DNA of 64,000 nt from Oryzomicrobium sp. (GTDB lineage: Bacteria; Pseudomonadota; Gammaproteobacteria; Burkholderiales; Rhodocyclaceae): positions 62,001 through 126,000 of the forward strand of contig NZ_JAJTBG010000006.1 in the NCBI RefSeq assembly GCF_021287045.1. Direction: 5' to 3'. Shown here piece after piece: positions 6,092 through 16,687 of this stretch. The notes beneath the pieces were generated by a model, which saw only the letters and a program-made list of their open reading frames with translations, made no database searches and had not been told where the DNA came from. Numbering within the stretch: position 1 is the stretch's first letter; every line of letters starts with the position of its first letter. The position numbers and the translations under genes were made by a program.

Positions 6092-6670
6092 TCAGTGCAG
6101 CCGGCGGGCGGACGACGCCGCCCCTTTCCCGCTGGCGGCGTCGGACAGGCCGTCCGCCTCGCCTTCCAGCCAGGCCAGCACTTCCGGGGCGATCACCCGG
6201 GCCGGATCGAGCAGGATCAGTTCGCCCCAATCCATGCACGCCCGCCCCCGGACCACGGCGGCATCGGCGCCGGGGCGGCCCGCCGCCAGGGGTTCGATGC
6301 GGCCCGGCGCCAGATCGAGGGAATCCCCCACTGCATCGACCAGCAGGCCGGCCAAAACCGATTCGTCCCGCCGCCGCGCCGCCACCACGACCACCCGGGA
6401 AGCGATGCCCGGCTGGAGCGGCCGCCCCCCCAGGAGGGGATGCAGGTCGAGCACCGGCACCAGGGAGTGGCGCAGCTTGATTGCGCCCCTCAGCAGGGGC
6501 GGCAATCCGGGCGCGACGATCAGTTCGCCGTGGGTCACCACTTCGCGCACCTGGTCCCGGGGCACGGCGCAGACGTCGTCGCCCAACTGGAAGCAGAGGC
6601 AGGCCAGCCCGGCGGCCTCACGGCGGGCCGGGGCGGCGATTGCATGATGGCGGATCAAGGTACGGGTCAT
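6092..6670 (-). CDS. CheW-like coupling protein (second, separately promoted copy)
   Basis: 192 residues with one CheW domain: LACLCFQLGDDVCAVPRDQVREV, LPPLLRGAIKLRHSLVPVLDL, then a SRVVVVAARR strand and the C-terminal LILLDPARVIAPE. CheW proteins couple chemoreceptors to CheA. The canonical NLRG motif is replaced by KLRH, so this is a diverged copy. It lies downstream of the main chemosensory operon but behind a hairpin (6857-6884) and has its own copy of the promoter block found before the operon. ATG 6670 is chosen over 6733 because the CheW domain begins soon after it. The C-terminal 20 residues are low complexity. Confidence 0.8.
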   Translation of the reverse strand: MTRTLIRHHAIAAPARREAAGLACLCFQLGDDVCAVPRDQVREVVTHGELIVAPGLPPLLRGAIKLRHSLVPVLDLHPLLGGRPLQPGIASRVVVVAARRRDESVLAGLLVDAVGDSLDLAPGRIEPLAAGRPGADAAVVRGRACMDWGELILLDPARVIAPEVLAWLEGEADGLSDAASGKGAASSARRLH

Positions 6671-6757
6671 GGCGGTTCTCCTCGGCGCAACCCGAATCCG
6701 GGAATGGCCCGGCCGGGACGGCGATGTCGCCATTACACCCGGCGGAGCGCCGCGGCA

Positions 6758-6819
6758 CCGTCGGCGAAGGCGGAATCCAGGCTAGGCGGCGGCTGATCCT
6801 GCTGTCGGGAAATTCCTAC
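6758..6819 (-). promoter_or_regulatory. Promoter block B (62 bp), copy of the block at 14219-14280
   Basis: Aligned without gaps to 14219-14280, 50 of 62 bases are identical. Its upstream end holds TGTCGGGAAATTCCTACC (6803-6820), a near-palindrome of the form TGTCGG-N6-CCTAC. It precedes the separate cheW-like gene, as the other copy precedes the chemosensory operon, so it is probably a shared promoter/operator unit. Confidence 0.6.
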
Positions 6820-6856
6820 CCGGCCGGACGCCGCAGACACGCAACGCAGACACGAA

Positions 6857-6884
6857 AGCGGCAAGGCCCGAAGGCCCTGCCGCT
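6857..6884 (-). terminator. Hairpin after the chemosensory operon
   Basis: Arms AGCGGCAAGGCC (6857-6868) and GGCCCTGCCGCT (6873-6884) with one mismatch and a 4-nt loop, 24 nt downstream of the cheW stop on the minus strand. Only a CTTTCG follows, so it may be a weak terminator or an RNA-stabilising end. Confidence 0.5.
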
Positions 6885-6907
6885 GCGTGGTTGGACGATC
6901 CCGCCGT

Positions 6908-7480
6908 TCAGGCCGGCACGGCGTCCGCATCGCGCGGGGCCGATTCTCCGACCACCGGCATTTCCGTACCGCCTCCGACGGAGAGGGCCTCCAGTTCTTC
7001 CAGGGCCAGTACCCGATCCAGGTTCAGGATCAGGATGAAGCCCTGGTCCATCTTGGCCATGCCGCGGATGAAGTCGGTGCGCAGGCGGGTGCCGAAGGAT
7101 GGCGGCGGCTCGATGCGGGAATCGGGGATGTCCAGCACCTCGTTGACCGCATCCACCAGGACGCCGACCACCTGGACTTCGGCCTCCCGGACCACCTCGA
7201 CGATGACGATGCAGGTGCGCCGCTCCACCTGGGTGGACTCGCCGCCGAAGCGGCGGCGCAGGTCAACCACCGGCACCACGGCGCCGCGCAGGTTGATCAC
7301 GCCGCGCACCGAGGCCGGCATCATCGGCACCGCCGTCAATTGGCCGTACTCGATGATCTCACGCACGTTGAGGATGCCCACGGCGAACACCTCGCTGCCC
7401 AGCTGAAAGCTCAGGCACTGGGTGGCATCGCCGCCCTCGGGCCGGGCGATGCCGATCTGGCTGTTGATCTGGGTGCTCAC
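6908..7480 (-). CDS. cheW: CheW chemotaxis coupling protein
   Basis: 190 residues. The CheW domain runs from about residue 20: CLSFQLGSEVFAVGILNVREIIEY, then MPASVRGVINLRGAVVPVVDLR (canonical NLRG), CIVIVEVV and VGVLVDAVNEVLDI. The C-terminal stretch FILILNLDRVLALEELEAL is typical. The start is taken as GTG 7480, which has GAGGAG 8 nt upstream; the ATG at 7513 would overlap the receptor gene that ends at 7491. It is the last gene of the chemosensory operon. With the receptor just upstream and the CheA two genes upstream it should form the signalling core. Confidence 0.9.
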   Translation of the reverse strand: MSTQINSQIGIARPEGGDATQCLSFQLGSEVFAVGILNVREIIEYGQLTAVPMMPASVRGVINLRGAVVPVVDLRRRFGGESTQVERRTCIVIVEVVREAEVQVVGVLVDAVNEVLDIPDSRIEPPPSFGTRLRTDFIRGMAKMDQGFILILNLDRVLALEELEALSVGGGTEMPVVGESAPRDADAVPA

Positions 7481-7490
7481 GGCGCGCTCC

Positions 7491-9644
7491 TCAGAACAGG
7501 ACGAAGTCGCCACTGGCCGCCGCTTCCAGGCCCGGCTGGTGACGTGCCTCAGCCTGGGCGCGGCGATTGCCGGCGGCCCGGGACAGGGAGATGACGCTGG
7601 CGTTGCCGTGGCCGGTATTGAAGAAGCCCATCAGCTGCTGCAACTGCTCGGCCTGGCCGGTCATTTCCTCGGCGGTGGCCGCCAGCTCCTCGGACGAGGC
7701 GGCGTTCTGCTGGGTGGTCTGGGTCAGCTGGGACATGGCCCCGTTGATCTGGCCCACGCCCAGGGCCTGCTCCTTGGAGGCGGCGGTGATTTCCTGCACC
7801 AGATCGGAGGTCCTCTTGATCGACGGCACGATCTCATCGAGCAGCTTGCCCGCGTGCTCGGCCAGGGACACGCTGTTGCCTGCCACCTGGCCGATCTCCT
7901 GGGCGGCCACCTGGCTGCGTTCGGCCAGCTTGCGCACCTCGGCGGCCACCACGGCGAAGCCCTTGCCGTGTTCCCCGGCTCGGGCCGCTTCGATGGCGGC
8001 ATTGAGGGCCAGCAGGTTGGTCTGGTAGGCGATGTCGTCGATGATGCCGATCTTGGCGGCGATCGACTTCATGGCCGCCACCGTGTCGGTCACCGCCTTG
8101 CCGCCATCGACGGCCTGGGCCGCGGCCTTGCTGGCGATGGTGTCGGTGACCTCGGCGTTCTCGGTGTTCTGGTTGATCGAGCTGCTCATCTGCTCCATGG
8201 AGGCGCTGCTCTCCTCGACGCTGGAGGACTGCTGGGCGGCGGCGCTGGACAAGGCCTGGGAGGTGGTGGAGATCTGCTCGCTGGCGTTGGTCAGGGCGTC
8301 GGCGGCGCTTCGCACCTCGGTGACCACACTGCCCAGGCGGTCGACCATGCTATTGACGCAGTCGCGCAGCTCCTGGAGCTTGCCCTGGTAGTTGGTGGCG
8401 ATGCTCTGGGTCAGGTCGCCCTGCTCCACCGCCGCCAGTACGCGCATGGCCTCGTTGAGGGGGCCGATGATGGCGTCCAGGGTGTCGTTGATGCCCGCCA
8501 CGATCTTGCGGAAGTCGCCCTCGTGCCGAGCAGCGTCGGCCCGGATATCGAGGCGCCCCTGCATGGCGGCGGCGGCCAGGGTCGACGTGTCCTCGATCAA
8601 GGCCTTCAGGTTGCTGCGTACCTGTTCGACGGTGTCGTTGATGAAAGCCTTCTTGCCCGGGAAGCGGGCCAGGGGCGCATCGAAGTTGCCGCGACCGAAT
8701 TCGGCGATGCAGGCCATGGTCTGCTTCTTGACCGCGATGTGGCCTGCCACCATGCCATTGACCCCCTCGGCCATGGTGCGGAATTCGCCCTGGAAGCGCT
8801 CGACACGGATCACGGCGTCGATGTCGCCCTTGTCGTGCTCGCTGCTGACGTGGTTCATCTCATTCAGCAGCGACTGGATCGTGCCTTGCATGGCGGCCAT
8901 GCTGGCCAGAAGGGAGGTTTTGTCTCCACTTTGCAGAGCCACTTCCTCGCTCAAGTCTCCCTTGGCAATCCGTCCAACGCAGGCTGCCGCGTAAGCAGGA
9001 TCGCCCCCAAGCTGGCGCAACACGGTACGGCTGACGAGCCATCCCAGTCCCACCACGGCCCCCAGGGTCGCCAGGCTGATGATGATTGCCTGCATCACCG
9101 CCGCCCCCAGCACCTCTTGGGCCTCCGTAGCCGACCGGTGACCAATTTCCAGGTTGTAGTCGAAGTGCTCGCGCATGGCATCGTCAAGCTTGCCAATCAC
9201 CCCCAGGTTCGCCATCACCAGGTCGCGAGCTTGCGCCGACTTCCCCTCCCGGGACAACGCCAGGGCCTGGTCGCGCAGCGTCAGGTAGGCTGACAGCGCA
9301 GTCCGATCCGCTTGCAGCAGTTGCCGGTCCTTGTCGTCGGCAACCAACGGCTCATAGGCTTTCAGCCCGTCTTCCACCTTGGTCAGGCTGGTGCGAATCT
9401 GCCCTTCCAACTCGGCCTTGTACCCTTTGTCGTCCTGGGCAATGTGCTGCCACAACTGGGCGCGCATCATTGCCAGGGGTTCATAGGCCCGCTGCAGCAC
9501 TTGCAGGCTGGGGGTCACGTTGATGTTGGTGAAGTTGGCGATAGTGAACACCCGGTTGATCTGGATGACGGCCAGGCCGGCGAGCAGGATGAGGCCGACG
9601 GCAGCCGAGGCGATCAGCAAGATGAGGCGTTGTTTCATGGTCAT
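7491..9644 (-). CDS. Methyl-accepting chemotaxis protein with 4HB-type periplasmic domain and several HAMP-like repeats
   Basis: 717 residues. TM1 is at about 7-27, a four-helix-bundle ligand domain at about 30-185, and TM2 at about 186-208. A long stretch (about 210-430) follows with HAMP-like segments, among them [14 protein letters not shown] and [18 protein letters not shown]. The signalling hairpin is about 440-680, with the conserved tip [30 protein letters not shown]. The tail ends GDFVLF rather than the xWxxF pentapeptide that binds CheR/CheB, in keeping with the absence of those genes here. AAGGAG precedes ATG 9644. The ligand is unknown. Confidence 0.9.
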
Positions 9645-9755
9645 GATGCGCTCCTTGGGAAGCAGAATGCGGATGGATTCGAGTCACATGGGGAAAGCAG
9701 GGGGCGGGCGGGTGGAGGGGTGGAAGGTGGGGTCAGGCGGCACATGGGACGTCTC

Positions 9756-11927
9756 CTAGCCGAGGCGGCCCAGGCGGCGGGCTTCCTGATCGGCGGCCTG
9801 CTGCACCAGGGGCGGCACGTCGAGGATCAGGGCCACTTCGCCGCTGCCCAGGATGGTGGAGCCGGCGATGCCGCGCAGATGGCGGAACATCTGCCCGAGG
9901 GGTTTGATGACGGTTTGGAATTCGCCGAGCAGGCGGTCAACCACCAGGCCGGCGCGGCGGTTGCCGTACTTCACTACCACCACGTTCTGCCGCCCGCCGG
10001 AGGATTCCAGGTCAAGCAGGTGGCCCAGGTTCAGGCAGGGCAATGCCTCGCCGCGCAGGTCCAGGTAGTGGCTCGGCTGGGCGCGCTGGTCGCAGGCCGG
10101 CAATTCGACGCATTCCTGAACCAGGTCCAGGGGCACTACGAAGGGGCTGCCGCCAACCTGGATGAGGAAGCCGTCGATGATCGCCAGGGTGAGGGGCAGG
10201 CGGATGCGCATGGTGGTGCCGGCACCCTCGCGGCTGTCGATGTCGATGCTGCCGCGCAGGGCGGCGATGTTGCGCTTGACCACGTCCATGCCGACGCCAC
10301 GGCCGGACAGGTTGGTGACCTGGTCGGCGGTGGAAAAGCCCGGCTCGAAGATCAGGGCGAACACTTCCCGGTCGTCGAGCACCTGGCCCGGGGCCACCAG
10401 GCCCCGCTCCCGGGCCTTGGCCAGGATCTTGTCGCGCTTGAGGCCGCCGCCGTCGTCGGCCACTTCGATGACGATACTGCCGGACTCGTGGTAGGCGTTC
10501 AGCCCGAGCCGCCCCCGGGCCGGCTTGCCGGCGGCCAGGCGTGCCTCCGTGGGCTCGATGCCGTGGTCCATGGCGTTGCGCACCAGGTGCATCAGGGGGT
10601 CGCCGATCTTTTCCACTACGGTCTTGTCGAGCTCGGTCTCGGCGCCGGTGATGACCAGCTCGATGTCCTTACCCAGTTCACGGGAAACGTCGCGCACCAC
10701 CCGGGGGAAGCGATTGAAGGATTCGCCGATCTCCACCATGCGCAGGGACAGGGCCCGGTCGCGGATGACCTCGACCTGGCGCTCCACCAGGGCCACCGCT
10801 TCGATCAGGGCGCCGTTGCCGTTGCGCTGGGCGAGCAGCCCGGCGGAAGCCCCGGCGATGACCAGTTCGCCGACCTGGTTGATCAGCTCTTCGAGCTTGT
10901 CGGCATCCACCCGGACGAAGCGGCTGGCGGCGGGCTTGCTGTCCCGGACCTTGGCCTGCTTGTCCAGGGCGGCCTGGACCAGGACGGGGGGAACCCCCGC
11001 CTCCTGGGTCAGGATTTCGCCCAGCCTCGGCGGCGCGGCACGGCGCTGCCGATCCAGGGCCCGCTCCACCTCGGCCGCCGTCAGGGCACCGCTGGCCACC
11101 AGGATTTCGCCCAGCCGGTCGGTGCCCTCGGGGGCCTCTGCCATGAGCCGCAGGTAGTCGCCCAGGGCCGCCCGGGGTGGCAGGATGGCGATGCGGCAGT
11201 CGTCGCGGACGAAATCGAAGGTGCTATCGATGGCCTCCCGGCTGGCGTCACTGAGAAAGTCCAGTTCGAAGCCCAGGTAGCAGCACTCCGGGTCCATCTC
11301 GTCCGCCGGGGGCAGCCTGTCCCACAGGGGCGTGATGTGCGTGATGGTGCCCAGGGTGCCCAGGTAGCGCAGGAAGGCGCTGGGGTCCATGCCCAGCTTC
11401 ATCACGTCGGGGCCGAAGCGCAGGGAGATGTGCCAGGCCTGGTTATGGGCTCGCTCAACTTCTTCTTCTGCCGCCAGGCGGGACGGCTCATCCGTCGCGG
11501 GCGCCGTGGTGGCCACGGTGGCGCCCGTATCGCCGCAATGGGACTGGAGGGCCGCCACCAGATCGGCGCGCCGCGCCGCATGGGCGGCGGCCGTGTCTTC
11601 TGCCAGCGTCTCGCCGGCGGCCTGGCCGACCATCAGTCCGAGCTGGTCGCCGCACTCCAGGAGCAGGGCGATCAATTCGCCATTCACCGCCACCTGGCCG
11701 CTGCGCACCCGGTCGAGCAGGGTTTCGGCCACATGGGCGAAGGCTACCAGCTCGTCCAGGCTGAACAGGCCAGCGGAGCCCTTGATGGTGTGGATGGCAC
11801 GGAACGTGGCGGCGATGGCTTCGCCGTCGGCCGGGTCCTGCTCCAGGGCGAGGAGGGAATCCTCCATGCCGAGCAGCAGTTCCCGGGCTTCGGCGACGAA
11901 GGTCTGCAGGACTTCATCCACGTTCAT
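9756..11927 (-). CDS. cheA: CheA histidine kinase with two internal MshEN-like repeats
   Basis: 723 residues. An Hpt (P1) domain lies at about 1-105, with the phosphorylatable H46 in RAIHTIKGSAGLFSL. A variable region (165-260) contains HISLRFGPDVMKLGMDPSAF. Two 24-residue repeats follow at 271-294 and 301-324, each starting RLGEIL and ending LDRQ or LDKQ. Dimerisation (P3) is at about 335-400 and the ATPase (P4) at about 400-585, with LVRNAMDHGIEP (N451) and ADDGGGL. The C-terminal CheW-like P5 domain is about 585-710 (FVVPLDLVQECVEL). It autophosphorylates and passes phosphate to the CheY-type receivers encoded upstream. There is no P2 domain of the E. coli type. The start overlaps the STAS gene by 14 bp, so the two are translationally coupled. 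Confidence 0.92.
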   Translation of the reverse strand: MNVDEVLQTFVAEARELLLGMEDSLLALEQDPADGEAIAATFRAIHTIKGSAGLFSLDELVAFAHVAETLLDRVRSGQVAVNGELIALLLECGDQLGLMVGQAAGETLAEDTAAAHAARRADLVAALQSHCGDTGATVATTAPATDEPSRLAAEEEVERAHNQAWHISLRFGPDVMKLGMDPSAFLRYLGTLGTITHITPLWDRLPPADEMDPECCYLGFELDFLSDASREAIDSTFDFVRDDCRIAILPPRAALGDYLRLMAEAPEGTDRLGEILVASGALTAAEVERALDRQRRAAPPRLGEILTQEAGVPPVLVQAALDKQAKVRDSKPAASRFVRVDADKLEELINQVGELVIAGASAGLLAQRNGNGALIEAVALVERQVEVIRDRALSLRMVEIGESFNRFPRVVRDVSRELGKDIELVITGAETELDKTVVEKIGDPLMHLVRNAMDHGIEPTEARLAAGKPARGRLGLNAYHESGSIVIEVADDGGGLKRDKILAKARERGLVAPGQVLDDREVFALIFEPGFSTADQVTNLSGRGVGMDVVKRNIAALRGSIDIDSREGAGTTMRIRLPLTLAIIDGFLIQVGGSPFVVPLDLVQECVELPACDQRAQPSHYLDLRGEALPCLNLGHLLDLESSGGRQNVVVVKYGNRRAGLVVDRLLGEFQTVIKPLGQMFRHLRGIAGSTILGSGEVALILDVPPLVQQAADQEARRLGRLG

Positions 11928-12234
11928 GGCCGTCTCCCGGCTGAGTCAGGCCGAAGGCCTTGCGCAGCCCGTACAGCTCGATCAGCCCCGACACCGTCGG
12001 GCTGCATTCGGCCAGGGTCAGACGGCGGTTTTCGGCCCGGGCCTGGCGGTAGAGCAGCAGCAGCAGCTGGATGCCGACGGTGTCGATCTCGTCCACCTCG
12101 GCCAGGTCCAGTTGCACCTCGGGGCCGGCGCACAGGGTGAGCAGCTGGGCCTTGACCCCGGCGGCGTAGATGTTGAACTCGCCCTGGAAGCGCAGGCGGG
12201 TGGTGCCGCCCTCGTTGTGGCAATGAATTTCCAT
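11914..12234 (-). CDS. STAS-domain protein of the chemosensory operon
   Basis: 106 residues, a single STAS domain similar to anti-sigma-factor antagonists: LRFQGEFNIYAAGVKAQLLTL, VQLDLAEVDEIDTVGIQLLLLLYRQA and RRLTLAECSPTVSGLIELYGL. The residue where SpoIIAA is phosphorylated (Ser in DSSG) is here the Thr of DTVG. It lies between cheY and cheA and overlaps cheA by 14 bp. Stand-alone STAS proteins occur in several environmental chemosensory clusters, where their role is not settled; no partner kinase of the SpoIIAB type is visible nearby. Confidence 0.85.
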   Translation of the reverse strand: MEIHCHNEGGTTRLRFQGEFNIYAAGVKAQLLTLCAGPEVQLDLAEVDEIDTVGIQLLLLLYRQARAENRRLTLAECSPTVSGLIELYGLRKAFGLTQPGDGHERG

Positions 12235-12244
12235 GACCGTCTCC

Positions 12245-12613
12245 TCAGGGCTGAACCAGTTTGGCCACCGCCAGCAGCATCTGGGCGGGCTGGAAGGGCT
12301 TGACCACCCAGGCCTTGGCGCCGACGGCCTGGCCTCTCTGCTTCATGGCCTCGCCGGCCTCGGTGGTGAGCATGATCACCGGGGTGAAACGGTGCTCCGA
12401 CAGCTTCTTCAGCTCGGCAACGAAGGTCAGGCCATCCATCACCGGCATGTTCACGTCGCTGATGATCAGGTGGGCCTTGTGGGCCTTGAGCTTGTTCAGC
12501 CCGTCCTGGCCGTCGCAGGCTTCCACGGTGTCGTAGCCGGCCCCCTTGAGGGCGATGCTGACGACCTGCCGCAGGGACGCGGAGTCGTCCACGATGAGAA
12601 TGGTCTTTGCCAT
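12245..12613 (-). CDS. cheY: CheY-type response regulator (stand-alone receiver)
   Basis: 122 residues, one receiver domain with all key residues: acidic pair D9/D10, phospho-acceptor D53 in ISDVNMPVMDG, a Thr in MLTTEAG and Lys in WVVKPF. It has no output domain. It closely resembles CheY proteins of chemosensory clusters and is the likely phosphate acceptor for the CheA two genes downstream. It sits 10 bp before the STAS gene and 10 bp after the receptor gene. Confidence 0.92.
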   Translation of the reverse strand: MAKTILIVDDSASLRQVVSIALKGAGYDTVEACDGQDGLNKLKAHKAHLIISDVNMPVMDGLTFVAELKKLSEHRFTPVIMLTTEAGEAMKQRGQAVGAKAWVVKPFQPAQMLLAVAKLVQP

Positions 12614-12623
12614 GGTGTTGCTC

Positions 12624-13802
12624 CTAGAAGAAGGTGATTTCGGATTCAGCCGGGGTCGAGCCGGTTTGGCCGCCATGGGCGGCGTGCTGCTCGACCGTGG
12701 TGTAGGTACGGGCCAGGTCGGCCAGCCAGGCGCGGGCGTCCAGATGGCGGTCTCCCTGGGCGAGGAAGCTGCCGAGCTTGTCCATGTCGTTGCGCACGTG
12801 GCCGAGCATCTGGCCCACCCGGTCCTGGAACTGGAGGGACACCAGGGCGTCGGAGACCTCGGCCTGGATGCCCTGGTTTTCCTGACGCAGGGTGTCGGTG
12901 GCCATGGACAGGTCGGCGGTGATGTCGTGGAAACGCTCCAGGATGCGGCCCACCGATTCCCGGGCCTGGTCCAGGGTCTGCTCATCCACCTGGGCCCCCA
13001 GGTCGGCAGCGCTCAGGGTGCCGTCGATGGTCGAGGTGACCAGTTGGACCTTCTCGGCGATCTGTTTGCCGGCGATGGCGGATTCGTTGGCCAGTTCGCG
13101 CACCGCGTCGGCCACCACGGCGAAGCCACGCCCCACCTCCCCGGCCCGGGCGGCCTCGATGGCGGCGTTGAGAGCCAGCAAGTTGGTCTGGCCGGCGATG
13201 CGTCCGACGCTGGCCGCCATCTTTTCCAGCTCGCCAATCACGTCGGCGAGGCGAGCCAATTGGTCGAGCATGGCCCGCTTGCTGTCCATCAGGCGGGTCA
13301 GGGCCGCGAGGATGTGGTCCAGGTCCTGGCGGCTCACTTCGAGCACCGGCAGCAAGCCGCCGCCCACCGAGGAATCGGTGGTCTGGGTGGTTTTGCCGAG
13401 GCGCTGGACGATGCCGGCGAAGCGTGCGGACAGGTCGCCGATGGCCGACTCGCTCTGGGTGCGCGCCAGTTCGATCTGCTGGGACCAGGTGGGCAGGATG
13501 CTGCCCTGGACCCCGTCGACCCGGGCTTGCAGGCTCTCTTGTTCTTCCCGGTTGTTCGCGGCGCGGACCTCCAGTTCGGATTCGAGCTTGAGTCGGGCGT
13601 CGATCAGGCGGCGGGCCCGGACCTGGCTCCAACGGGCGGCGGCGGCACCGCCGGCAAACAGGACGCCGGCCGCGGCGATCGCCAGAGGGTCGCCCCAGCG
13701 GTAAGCCAGGAGCCCGGCGGCGGAAGCCAGCCCCAGGGTCGCGGGGGGCAGCCAGAAAGATGCGAGGCTGGGGGCACGGGTGCTGGGGATAGCGGAATTC
13801 AT
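12624..13802 (-). CDS. Small membrane chemoreceptor-like protein with a CheZ-like FQDxxxQ motif
   Basis: 392 residues. Two transmembrane segments lie near the N-terminus (about 15-33 and 39-56) with almost no periplasmic part. A cytoplasmic coiled coil follows, with the receptor tip motif [21 protein letters not shown] at about 202-222. Residues 325-331 read FQDRVGQ inside [18 protein letters not shown]. This has the same D-x3-Q spacing as the catalytic FQDLTGQ of CheZ. A flexible linker follows and the chain ends SEITFF. ATG 13802 overlaps the stop of the upstream receiver gene by 4 bp (ATGA), fixing the start. The tip identifies it as a CheA-coupled signal transducer; the phosphatase activity is inferred from the motif. 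Confidence 0.85.
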
Positions 13803-14158
13803 GACCGGTCCTCCACCAGGCCGCGCACTGCCTGGGTGAGCTGTTCGAAATCGACGCTCTTGTCGAAGAAGAAGTCCGCCCCGGCGGTGGTGCAGCGGCG
13901 GCGGAACCCCAGGTGGTTGGAGAAGATGGCCACCACGGTGGCCGGGGACTCCAGCTTGATCTTGGTGAGCAGGGCGATGCCGCTGCCGTCGGGCAGGTCG
14001 AGGTCCAGGATCACGCACTGGGGATGGAACAGACGGAAGTAGCGCAGCCCTTCGGCCAGGTGGTCGGCCACGGCGATTTCCATGCCCGGCAGGGGGGCCA
14101 GGGCCAGACGGAGGCGCTCGCTGATCAGCTTCGAGTCTTCGACGATGAGGGTTTTCAT
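13799..14158 (-). CDS. Stand-alone receiver (response regulator) heading the chemosensory operon
   Basis: 119 residues: a single receiver domain with the acidic pair E7/D8, acceptor D52 in [12 protein letters not shown] and the conserved Lys in [12 protein letters not shown]. It has no DNA-binding output, so it probably acts as a second CheY or a phosphate sink for CheA. It is quite different from the CheY at 12245. ATG 14158 is preferred to the ATG 12 codons upstream because the beta-1 strand KTLIVEDS begins at once. It is the first gene of the operon, and its stop overlaps the next start. Confidence 0.85.
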
Positions 14159-14218
14159 GGGGCTGTTTCCAAAGGCGTGCGGCGATGACTGCATTACAGG
14201 CCAATGGACGCCCCGGCG

Positions 14219-14281
14219 CCGTCGGCAACGGCGGAACGTGGGCTAGGGAGCGGCTGAATCTCCTGTCGGAAAATTCCTACA
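14219..14281 (-). promoter_or_regulatory. Promoter block A upstream of the chemosensory operon
   Basis: Matches block B (6758-6819) at 50 of 62 bases. It contains TGTCGGAAAATTCCTACA (14264-14281), an imperfect inverted repeat of TGTCGG and CCTACA. On the transcribed strand both copies then show CCTAGCC, N14, GCCGACGG, which faintly resembles a sigma-28-type spacing. Which sigma factor or regulator reads it is unknown; the NarL-type regulator encoded next door (14382) is one candidate. Confidence 0.6.
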
Positions 14282-14381: not shown

Positions 14382-15011
14382 CTACTCCTGGGCCAAGCCG
14401 TGGCGCAGGGCGTAGCGCACCAGGTCGGCGTTGTTGTCGATGGCGAGCTTTTGCATCAGGCGGGTCTTGTGGGTGCTCACCGTCTTGGCGCTGACGTGGA
14501 GCCGATCGCCCACCTCGGCCAGGGACAGGCCGCCGCTCAGCAGTTGCAGCACCTCGAATTCCCGATCGGACAGCACTTCGTGGGGCGGTGCGTCCTCGGG
14601 GGCGCCGAACACCATGGCGTCGACCAGGTCGGGATCGATGAAGCGGCCGCCGCCCGCTACCTTGCGCACCGCCGCCAGCAGAATGGCCGGATCGCTATCC
14701 TTGGTGACGTAGCCGGCCGCGCCGGCGCGCAGCGCCCGGGACACCAACTGGCTCTCGTTGTGCATGCTGAGTACCAGAATCGGCACCTGGGGCGCCTCGC
14801 CGTGGGCACGGCGGATCAGGTCCAACCCGCTGAGGCCGGGCATGGACATGTCCATCAGCAGCAAATCCACCCCGCCCTGGCGCAGTTGGGCCAGGACTTC
14901 GCTGCCCTGGCTGGCCTCGGCGCAGACTTGCAGGTCCGCTTCGGCGGTGATGAGCTGCTTGAGGCCGCCACGCACGATGCTATGGTCGTCGGCGATCAGG
15001 ATACGGATCAT
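14382..15011 (-). CDS. NarL/FixJ-family response regulator
   Basis: 209 residues. The receiver domain (1-120) has D8/D9, acceptor D54 in LLMDMSMPGLSG and Lys in GYVTKDSD. A LuxR-type helix-turn-helix follows at about 145-205 (LSDREFEVLQLLSGGLSLAEVGDRLHVSAKTVSTHKTRLMQKL). This architecture is a two-component transcription factor. Its start codon overlaps the stop of the cognate kinase by 4 bp (ATGA at 15008-15011), so the pair is translationally coupled. Targets are unknown; the adjacent chemosensory promoter boxes are candidates. Confidence 0.92.
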   Translation of the reverse strand: MIRILIADDHSIVRGGLKQLITAEADLQVCAEASQGSEVLAQLRQGGVDLLLMDMSMPGLSGLDLIRRAHGEAPQVPILVLSMHNESQLVSRALRAGAAGYVTKDSDPAILLAAVRKVAGGGRFIDPDLVDAMVFGAPEDAPPHEVLSDREFEVLQLLSGGLSLAEVGDRLHVSAKTVSTHKTRLMQKLAIDNNADLVRYALRHGLAQE

Positions 15012-16555
15012 GGCGCCACATCCTCCCGGGGGATGGTGATGTACAGGGTGGTGCCCCGGCCGGGCACGCTGTGGATGCGCAAGGTGCCGCCCAGGGCCTC
15101 GAGGCGTTCGCCCATACCAACCAGGCCAAAGGAATTGGGCCGGACCAGGGAAGGGTCGAAGCCCTTGCCGTCGTCGGCAATGCTCAGTTCCACTTGCTGG
15201 TCGCCCAGGTGAAACCGGACGGTCACCGCGCTGGCCCCGGCATGGCGCATCACATTGGTCAGCGACTCTTGGACGATGCGGAATAGGGCCGTGGCCCGGC
15301 CATCGTCCAGGGATTCCTCGCCGCTGGCGCCGAACGTGCAGACGATGCCGGTGCGCTGGCGAAAATCGTCGGTGAGCCATTCCAGGGCCGGCACGATGCC
15401 CAGGTTGAGCATGGCCGGACGCAACTGGCTGGCCACTTGGCGCATCACTCCGACGGTGTCGTCGAGCAACTTCTGGATGGTTTCCAGGCGCCGGCCGATG
15501 TCCGGCGAGACTTCGCCCAGGTCGCGGCGCAGCAGGCTCACATCCATCTTCAGGGCGGTGAGCAGGGAACCCTGCTCGTCGTGCAGCTCCCGGGCGATGC
15601 GCTTGCGCTCTTCCTCGACCGCCTCTCCCCAATGGGCGGCCAGTTCGCGCAGGCGCTGGGAGGATTCACGCAGTTCCTGCTCCATGCGCTTGGTTTCGGT
15701 CAGATCGAGTACGAAGGACACGCCGCGTTCGACCTCTCCATCCAATCGTGCGCTGCCGACCAGGACCGGGAAACGGGTCCCGTCGACCCGCAGGCAGGTC
15801 TTCTCATAAGGCAGGATGGCCTGGCCCGCCGCCATGGCGGCCCGGGCACGCCGGGTGGTTTCATGGCATTCCGGCGCCACCAGCCGCTCCCAGGAGACCT
15901 CTCCGGCCAGAACATCCTCACGGCGCAGGCCGAACAGTTCCAGGAAGGCCGTATTGGCATCGATGACGTGGTTATCTCGCCCCCAGAACATGACGCCAAT
16001 GATGTTGGCGTCCACCAGGTAGTGGATCAGGGCATTGCGCTCCTGCAAGGCGACTTCGGCCTGGCGGCGTTCGGCAACCTCGGCACTGAGGCGCCGGTTG
16101 GCGGCCTCCAGCTCGGCGGTACGCTCCCGCACCCGCTCTTCCAGGTCGCGGCGCAGGGCCTGCAAGGTGAGGTGGGTGGCGATGCGGGCCTGCACCTCTT
16201 CGCTCTTGATCGGCTTGGCGATGTAGTCCACCCCGCCGCTGGCAAAGGCCTTGACCCGGTCCTCCACCGCGCTGGCGGCGCTGATGAAGATTACCGGAAT
16301 GTCCGCGCAGCCCGGCTCGGCCTTGAGCCGGGCGCAGGTCTCGTAGCCGTCCATGTCGGGCATGCAGATGTCGAGCAGGACCAGGTCCGGACGGCCCTGG
16401 GCCACGGCAGCCAACACCGCGGCGCCGTCGTTGACGGCCAGCACCGTATAGCCCCAGCGCTCCAGCAGCCGGACGAGCAGGTGCCGGTCCAGCGGCGAAT
16501 CGTCCGCCAGCAGGATCGTACCCGACGGGTTGGGGACTGCGCTTGTCTGCGTCAC
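15008..16555 (-). CDS. Receiver-PAS-HisKA_3 sensor kinase (partner of the NarL-type regulator)
   Basis: 515 residues from GTG 16555. A receiver domain (about 12-130, acceptor D62 in VLLDICMPDMDG) is followed by a short coiled coil (about 135-175). A PAS domain (about 180-300) contains DANIIGVMFWGRDNHVIDANTAF. The kinase core is of the HisKA_3/NarX type, with the histidine in RKRIARELHDEQGSLLTALK and ATPase motifs IVQESLTNVMRHAGA and IADDGKGFD. No membrane segment is present, so sensing is cytoplasmic. GTG 16555 has AGGAGGG at ideal spacing; ATG 16585 is a less likely alternative. The N-terminal receiver suggests input from another phosphorelay. Confidence 0.88.
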   Translation of the reverse strand: MTQTSAVPNPSGTILLADDSPLDRHLLVRLLERWGYTVLAVNDGAAVLAAVAQGRPDLVLLDICMPDMDGYETCARLKAEPGCADIPVIFISAASAVEDRVKAFASGGVDYIAKPIKSEEVQARIATHLTLQALRRDLEERVRERTAELEAANRRLSAEVAERRQAEVALQERNALIHYLVDANIIGVMFWGRDNHVIDANTAFLELFGLRREDVLAGEVSWERLVAPECHETTRRARAAMAAGQAILPYEKTCLRVDGTRFPVLVGSARLDGEVERGVSFVLDLTETKRMEQELRESSQRLRELAAHWGEAVEEERKRIARELHDEQGSLLTALKMDVSLLRRDLGEVSPDIGRRLETIQKLLDDTVGVMRQVASQLRPAMLNLGIVPALEWLTDDFRQRTGIVCTFGASGEESLDDGRATALFRIVQESLTNVMRHAGASAVTVRFHLGDQQVELSIADDGKGFDPSLVRPNSFGLVGMGERLEALGGTLRIHSVPGRGTTLYITIPREDVAP

Positions 16556-16607
16556 GTTGCCCTCCTGGAACCCTGCCGTGCCCATGCGTGCTGGGACCGA
16601 CAGCCAA

Positions 16608-16620
16608 CTACATACTGTAG
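16608..16620. promoter_or_regulatory. Small palindrome upstream of the sensor kinase gene
   Basis: CTACATACTGTAG: arms CTACA and TGTAG with a 3-nt centre, about 55 bp before GTG 16555. It shares the ACA/TGT ends of the boxes at 6803 and 14264 and could be an autoregulatory site. This is only a visual match. Confidence 0.3.
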
Positions 16621-16687
16621 CGGATGGAAACCACATGCAACCTGACTAATACTGTCATGGGAAGCGGGCCGCCGGCATGGCCCAAGA

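Follow-up and report, generated by a model that had tools for sequence, protein, structure and literature searches.

Background

The described receptors of the second messenger cyclic dimeric guanosine monophosphate (c-di-GMP) that most resemble the element reported here are MshEN domains. In MshE of Vibrio cholerae the N-terminal subdomain, MshEN_N (PDB 5HTL), is a four-helix bundle made of two tandem 24-residue motifs, and it continues into a C-terminal subdomain (MshEN_C) and an ATPase. The isolated subdomain (VcMshEN_N 1-62) binds c-di-GMP at 0.35 µM without its C-terminal partner (PMC5013675), and isolated N-terminal PilF GSPII-A constructs bind when consensus residues are in place in their motifs (PMC12002112), so that absence of the C-terminal subdomain need not prevent binding. 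PilF, a pilus ATPase of Thermus thermophilus, also contains GSPII-C, which binds c-di-GMP and whose motif II starts with P335 (PMC11731258, PMC12002112), and GSPII-B, in which a helix unwinds locally and the subdomains reorient upon binding (PMC11731258). The element considered here is a pair of such motifs within a CheA histidine kinase of Oryzomicrobium sp., encoded in a stretch of 64,000 nucleotides (assembly GCF_021287045.1, contig NZ_JAJTBG010000006.1, positions 62,001 to 126,000), the whole of which we call the window.

Links between c-di-GMP and chemosensory systems have been described at several levels, including a phosphodiesterase recruited by CheA (PMC10212136) and the adaptor MapZ (work cited in PMC7288161). 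CheY-like c-di-GMP-binding regulators of a flagellar motor act at the level of CheY-like proteins (PMC5677366), whereas here the kinase itself carries the putative receptor domain. CheA figures among the MshEN-associated proteins of Wang et al. 2016 (PMC5013675); their MshEN-CheA has the same kind of architecture, as far as a mention in the text allows the likeness to be drawn, and it is treated in one clause and a supplementary table, with no binding or activity assay of a CheA in the available text. Beyond that mention, we found no experimental study of an MshEN-CheA among the open-licence PubMed Central papers listed in our searches, and the available portions of PMC12943098, PMC10212136, PMC7288161 and PMC10333796 contain none. 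The idea of an MshEN-CheA fusion is already published; new here are its conservation, its probable repeated loss and a conserved operon.

By examining the motifs, their match to profiles and structures, and their distribution among CheA homologues, we hypothesize, with a probability of roughly 0.65, that an MshEN_N module placed after the P2-like domain and before the dimerisation domain (P3) binds c-di-GMP and biases the kinase. Both c-di-GMP and chemosensory arrays shape the decision to move or to settle, and if the hypothesis is true, no connection between the two could be more direct than a receptor domain inside the kinase.

Results

Two tandem motifs matching MshEN_N

The two motifs occupy residues 271-294 (RLGEILVASGALTAAEVERALDRQ; motif I, 11046..11117) and residues 301-324 (RLGEILTQEAGVPPVLVQAALDKQ; motif II, 10956..11027) of the kinase, which is encoded on the minus strand, and together they map exactly to positions 10956-11117 of the window. 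They are separated by a spacer of 6 residues (295-300; 11028..11045), where MshE has 5. A preliminary description of this DNA had reported two 24-residue repeats with such a spacer, and both are confirmed. The motifs are identical at 11 of 24 positions, and 3 of 2000 shuffles of the window CheA reach 11 identities at an offset of 24-40; taken alone the internal repeat is suggestive, being unusual without being overwhelming.

Both motifs have key residues expected of MshEN_N (R, K or L at position 1, G at 3 and Q at 24). Positions 1, 3 and 24 are R271, G273 and Q294 in motif I and R301, G303 and Q324 in motif II, the Gly and Gln positions being the same as in MshE, and equivalents of these Gly and Gln residues contact c-di-GMP in MshE and PilF (PMC5013675, PMC11731258). 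Positions 2, 17 and 21 are hydrophobic in both motifs (L272, V287 and L291; L302, V317 and L321), with V in place of the consensus L at position 17 of each; in a PilF GSPII-A variant, restoring both Ile residues in place of Leu carried a 2.4-fold cost (PMC12002112).

Profile searches place the segment in the same family. The NCBIfam model NF053729 ('cyclic di-GMP-binding domain-containing protein, MshE-related'; 53 positions, curated cut-off 38 bits) matches residues 271-324 of the whole protein over its entire length (model 1-53 of 53; 35.1 bits, E 8.4e-9), and it scores just above the cut-off in a scan of the genome (39.4 bits, E 2.1e-9) and on an 80-residue segment (40 bits, E 2.5e-10). Each of the 39 homologous segments considered below also hits this model, none with an E above 0.01. 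When a profile of these 39 segments was searched against the PDB, PilF, PilB or MshE made up the first 14 of 16 rows, with a best E of 1.3e-18. The best-scoring stretch, PilF 298-360 (43.1 bits), contains P335, and the best PDB match is therefore the GSPII-C domain. Outside the pilus ATPases, the NfrB glycosyltransferase models PRK11234 and PRK15489 match 33 and 39 of the 39 CheA modules, respectively, although NfrB is an exopolysaccharide-linked glycosyltransferase and not a kinase.

Structure prediction gives a similar picture. An AlphaFold2 model of the module (80 residues, 39-row alignment) has helices at residues 272-278, 284-296, 302-308 and 314-330, a mean predicted local distance difference test score (pLDDT) of 83.3 and a predicted template modelling score of 0.70. 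The top six rows of a Foldseek search of the PDB are taken by MshE and by PilF GSPII-B variants in complex with c-di-GMP; they align over 56 columns at a root-mean-square deviation of 0.8-1.4 Å (1.2-1.4 Å for MshE), with probability 0.97-1.00 and E 0.33-1.3, GSPII-B being the best fold match. The CheA module thus very probably folds, as far as the model goes, like the four-helix bundle of MshEN_N, as the comparison proposed in the preliminary description would have it. Together, NF053729, the PDB profile search, the predicted fold and the conserved ligand-contact residues support the MshEN identity first proposed from the sequence, and the family evidence that residues 271-324 form a genuine MshEN_N module is strong. 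Unlike MshE, the CheA has no MshEN_C; its module is internal and P3 follows next.

Conservation and probable loss among CheA homologues

A homologue search covered 61 genomes, the source genome included, 56 of which contained some match to the window CheA. From 48 loci taken among the matches listed (L010-L057) came 47 homologues, as L039 gave no row (it later served as the outgroup); dropping L053, L054 and L057 as partial or fused frames left 44 near-full-length homologues, including the window CheA and a paralogue from its own genome. Alignment A1 holds the 39 that remained after five without an intact module were removed, and alignment A2 holds 25 of those 39. A second set was drawn from related loci in named genomes, of which there are at least 575; it consists of the best 80, several of which appear to come from the same genomes as the 44 homologues. 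By their titles these 80 are mostly Beta- and Gammaproteobacteria (for example Azospira, Azoarcus, Thauera, Pseudomonas, Zobellella and Ectothiorhodospira); single records carry the labels Nitrospira, Nitrospirota and Deltaproteobacteria.

The suggestion that related CheAs share the arrangement is borne out by 39 of the 44 homologues, and all four putative ligand residues (G273, Q294, G303 and Q324) are kept in 38 of the 44, that is in 38 of the 39 module carriers, representing 27 of the 61 genomes. They are likewise kept in 80 of the 80 named loci, a count biased upward because the query against which these loci were ranked for similarity contains the module, which favours carriers. Other positions vary more: the first residue of motif II is P in 42 of the 80 loci, and in this most of these CheAs resemble PilF GSPII-C, whereas both motifs of the window CheA begin with R. 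Among the homologues counted the spacer is between 6 and 22 residues long. Glu is invariant at position 16 of motif I in the 39 rows of A1 (E286 in the window CheA, 11070-11072), a position that the published MshEN consensus leaves free (PMC5013675).

Ratios of nonsynonymous to synonymous substitution rates (dN/dS) for the module are 0.56 to L011 and 0.37 to L012. Elsewhere in the protein the ratios to L011 are 0.38 in P1, 0.39 in the P2-like domain, 0.24-0.36 in P3-P5 and 1.0 in the linker at residues 126-160, and those to L012 are 0.40 in P1 and 0.47 in the P2-like domain. These values indicate purifying selection on the module, no stronger than on the neighbouring domains.

The intact module is missing from five of the 44 homologues (L037, L038, L051, L055 and L056), all of which keep the CheA core, so that natural relatives with, without and with decayed modules exist. 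L051 has a decayed module with a degenerate motif I, L055 retains only the last helix of motif II, and a sixth deviant homologue, L050, has no motif I Gln. In a tree of the P3-P5 core, L038 groups with L036 (support 96/81), L056 with L026 (99/91) and L055 with L047 and L049 (100/98). Because several module-less CheAs thus sit beside module carriers, the tree suggests at least three losses of the module, provided that the module is ancestral; the tree is midpoint-rooted, with the outgroup inside an open fork, some long branches and a bootstrap that had not settled.

A more distant search covered 200 genomes of the phylum, 35 of which matched at E 1e-20 or better, and 15 of the 34 other genomes were read. 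Three CheAs of the same class resemble the window CheA, one of them (L154) having H where the motif I Gln would stand. In 12 CheAs of other classes (L141-L152) the order of P2-like domain and MshEN module is kept and the module is contracted, motif I running straight, or nearly so, into motif II; the motif I Gln is missing in nine of the 12.

Points that weigh against a c-di-GMP-responsive kinase

Several observations count against the proposed reading. The NF053729 score on the whole protein lies below the curated cut-off, and Foldseek found no PDB match to the module model at E 0.001. The search with a model of residues 158-335 (P2-like domain plus module) returned no MshEN structure among the best 50 of 1409 rows. 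In the module model the last ten residues have a pLDDT of about 66, so the end of the helix near P3 is unsure. Rows 8 and 10 of the Foldseek search with the module model hold the N-terminal domain of PilB from Xanthomonas, whose family reportedly does not bind c-di-GMP (PMC10333796), and because this protein also matches, binders cannot be told from non-binders by the fold; PilF GSPII-A and XpsE, too, fold like MshEN and yet do not bind (PMC12002112, PMC5013675). The module's dN/dS to L011 exceeds that of P1, of the P2-like domain and of the core, and the module is not essential to the kinase, since the five homologues without it in intact form keep the core. The motif I Gln, moreover, is missing in one of the three same-class and nine of the 12 distant CheAs.

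Motif II itself departs from the consensus, with no hydrophobic residue at position 7 and with A310 at position 10 (G follows at 311), where motif I has G280; the A at this position of motif II is a point of difference from MshE. The preliminary description had noted this imperfect TQEAG turn as a caution; the deviation is real, yet it is a weak objection because only 23 of the 80 related loci have G at position 10 of motif II, and the relaxed search motif of Wang et al. 2016 allowed [GAS] there (PMC5013675).

A scan of the window CheA and of the segment with the Pfam model PF05157 (MshEN, T2SSE_N), the profile proposed in the preliminary description as a check, gave no match. In three other proteins of the same genome, however, a PF05157 match directly follows an NF053729 match, side by side, and PF05157 therefore models the C-terminal subdomain. 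It covers the C-terminal half of MshEN, which has no counterpart in the window CheA and is not the main binding half; its silence is uninformative here, and would have spoken against the module for a trivial reason.

A diguanylate cyclase as a conserved operon neighbour was also considered and is unsupported. GGDEF-like open reading frames (ORFs) are not clearly enriched near these genes: a crude pattern found them in the flanks of 12 of the 80 loci (772 kb, about 1.6 per 100 kb), a pattern that undercounts, having missed the GGDEF-EAL protein of L069, and the profile-based density in the source genome is 1.2 per 100 kb (48 in 3.91 Mb).

Binding, signalling and alternative explanations

On balance the module likely works as a c-di-GMP sensor. 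It would bind one c-di-GMP with roughly sub-micromolar to micromolar affinity, the ligand most likely sitting across both motifs as in MshE. Binding would then fix or reorient the segment that joins the P1/P2 arm to the dimer helices of P3, autophosphorylation or phosphotransfer to a neighbouring CheY would change, and the chemosensory output would come to depend on c-di-GMP as well as on the receptors. High c-di-GMP generally goes with damped motility signalling, which would be the likelier sign of the effect; we predict no sign for this kinase.

The alternative that survives best, though we consider it improbable, is that the module does bind c-di-GMP and serves as a tether or localisation signal, directing the kinase to an array, a pole or a partner protein with no gating of phosphorylation. 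In its favour, the module is a separable add-on, missing or decayed in five of 44 homologues that retain the core, and its spacer varies widely in length. Its place argues otherwise: the module lies directly before P3, its last helix predicted to reach about residue 330, five residues short of that domain, a position that suits effects on the P1/P2 arms.

Somewhat less probable still is that the MshEN_N fold has been kept and c-di-GMP binding lost, leaving a structural spacer or a protein-docking domain, as reported of some PilB and XpsE N-termini. The non-binding relatives PilF GSPII-A and XpsE are precedents, Xanthomonas PilB matches the model as well, motif II of the window CheA departs from the consensus at positions 7 and 10, and the distant CheAs with abutting motifs mostly lack the motif I Gln. 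Against this, the residues at which substitution weakens or abolishes binding in PilF and MshE (the position-3 Gly, the last Gln and position 1) are present in both motifs, and the Gly/Gly/Gln/Gln set is retained throughout the carrier-biased named loci and in nearly all homologues with a module, which a pure scaffold would not need. A chance resemblance, in which a helical linker happens to contain an internal repeat as good as those of 3 in 2000 shuffles, we reject as having next to no probability, given profile E values of 1e-9 to 1e-10, PDB hits almost only to the MshEN family, the fold match and the conservation.

The chances seem to us evenly balanced that a large and widespread subfamily of CheA proteins are direct c-di-GMP receptors, so that cells would sense their second-messenger state within the kinase and re-tune the whole receptor array without an adaptor, and that repeated loss of the module has disconnected the two systems in some lineages.

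Domain architecture of the kinase

The ORF at 9756..11927 (minus strand, as are all domains given here) is a complete CheA of 723 residues in the order P1, P2-like, MshEN_N, P3, P4 and P5, with Hpt, H-kinase_dim, HATPase_c and CheW all above their Pfam cut-offs. P1, the Hpt domain (residues 5-95; 11643..11915; PF01627, 56.1 bits), contains HTIKGSAG at residue 46, which we take to be the phosphoacceptor His site. The P2-like domain (residues ~161-255; 11163..11447) is strongly conserved among the homologues and has a predicted alpha/beta fold; the Pfam scan gave no match for residues 161-255, and the best 50 Foldseek rows for the 158-335 model are only weak ferredoxin-like and unrelated matches. 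The preliminary description had placed the module between P1 and the dimerisation domain, which is right as to P3 and is refined by the P2-like domain that lies between P1 and the module. P3 (residues 335-393; 10749..10925) matches PF02895 at 37 bits. P4, the ATPase domain (residues 443-580; 10188..10601; Pfam HATPase_c), has the N, G1 and G2 box sequences HLVRNAMDHG at 447, DDGGG at 491 and GRGVGMDVV at 542, presumably the ATP-site boxes, and P5, the CheW-like domain, covers residues 586-710 (9798..10172; PF01584).

Operon and genome context

The kinase gene lies in a cluster of chemosensory genes, all on the minus strand, whose arrangement recurs in related loci (flank counts use only those of the 80 loci with enough flank). 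Upstream of it, a gene for a STAS-domain protein (11914..12234) shares 14 bases with the start of cheA; beyond it, farther upstream, lies a CheY-like single receiver of 122 residues (12245..12613; PF00072), whose start was chosen by eye. Still farther upstream is a receptor-like ORF with an MCPsignal domain (12624..14228; Pfam), its true start uncertain, which is overlapped in another frame by a single receiver protein (13799..14194; PF00072). Downstream of cheA are a chemoreceptor with 4HB, several HAMP and MCPsignal domains (7491..9644), a CheW coupling protein (6908..7513) and a second CheW-like protein (6092..6733), all identified by Pfam. STAS genes immediately precede cheA in 49 of 78 related loci; also on the upstream side, receivers occur in 62 of 64 and receptor-like proteins in 37 of 64, and on the downstream side a methyl-accepting chemotaxis protein occurs in 57 of 57 and a CheW in 53 of 54. 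An anti-sigma-factor antagonist before cheY and cheA has been described for stage 1 F7 clusters, and we note this only as a lead to the chemosensory class (F7 or F8).

The cluster (6092-14228) thus has two CheW proteins, and it contains no CheB methylesterase (CheR was not searched for). The genome encodes two CheB methylesterase domains, both off the contig of the window, together with 48 GGDEF matches by profile and one FliM. The paralogous CheA (L043; G000:C10:98690-100831) shares 59% identity with the window CheA and has an intact module. One of the two CheB domains is located some 4.3 kb away from this paralogue, and a GGDEF match some 5.7 kb away. Upstream of the cluster in the window, a receiver-PAS-HisKA_3 hybrid kinase (15008-16636) is followed by an ORF that reads, by eye, like a LuxR-type response regulator.

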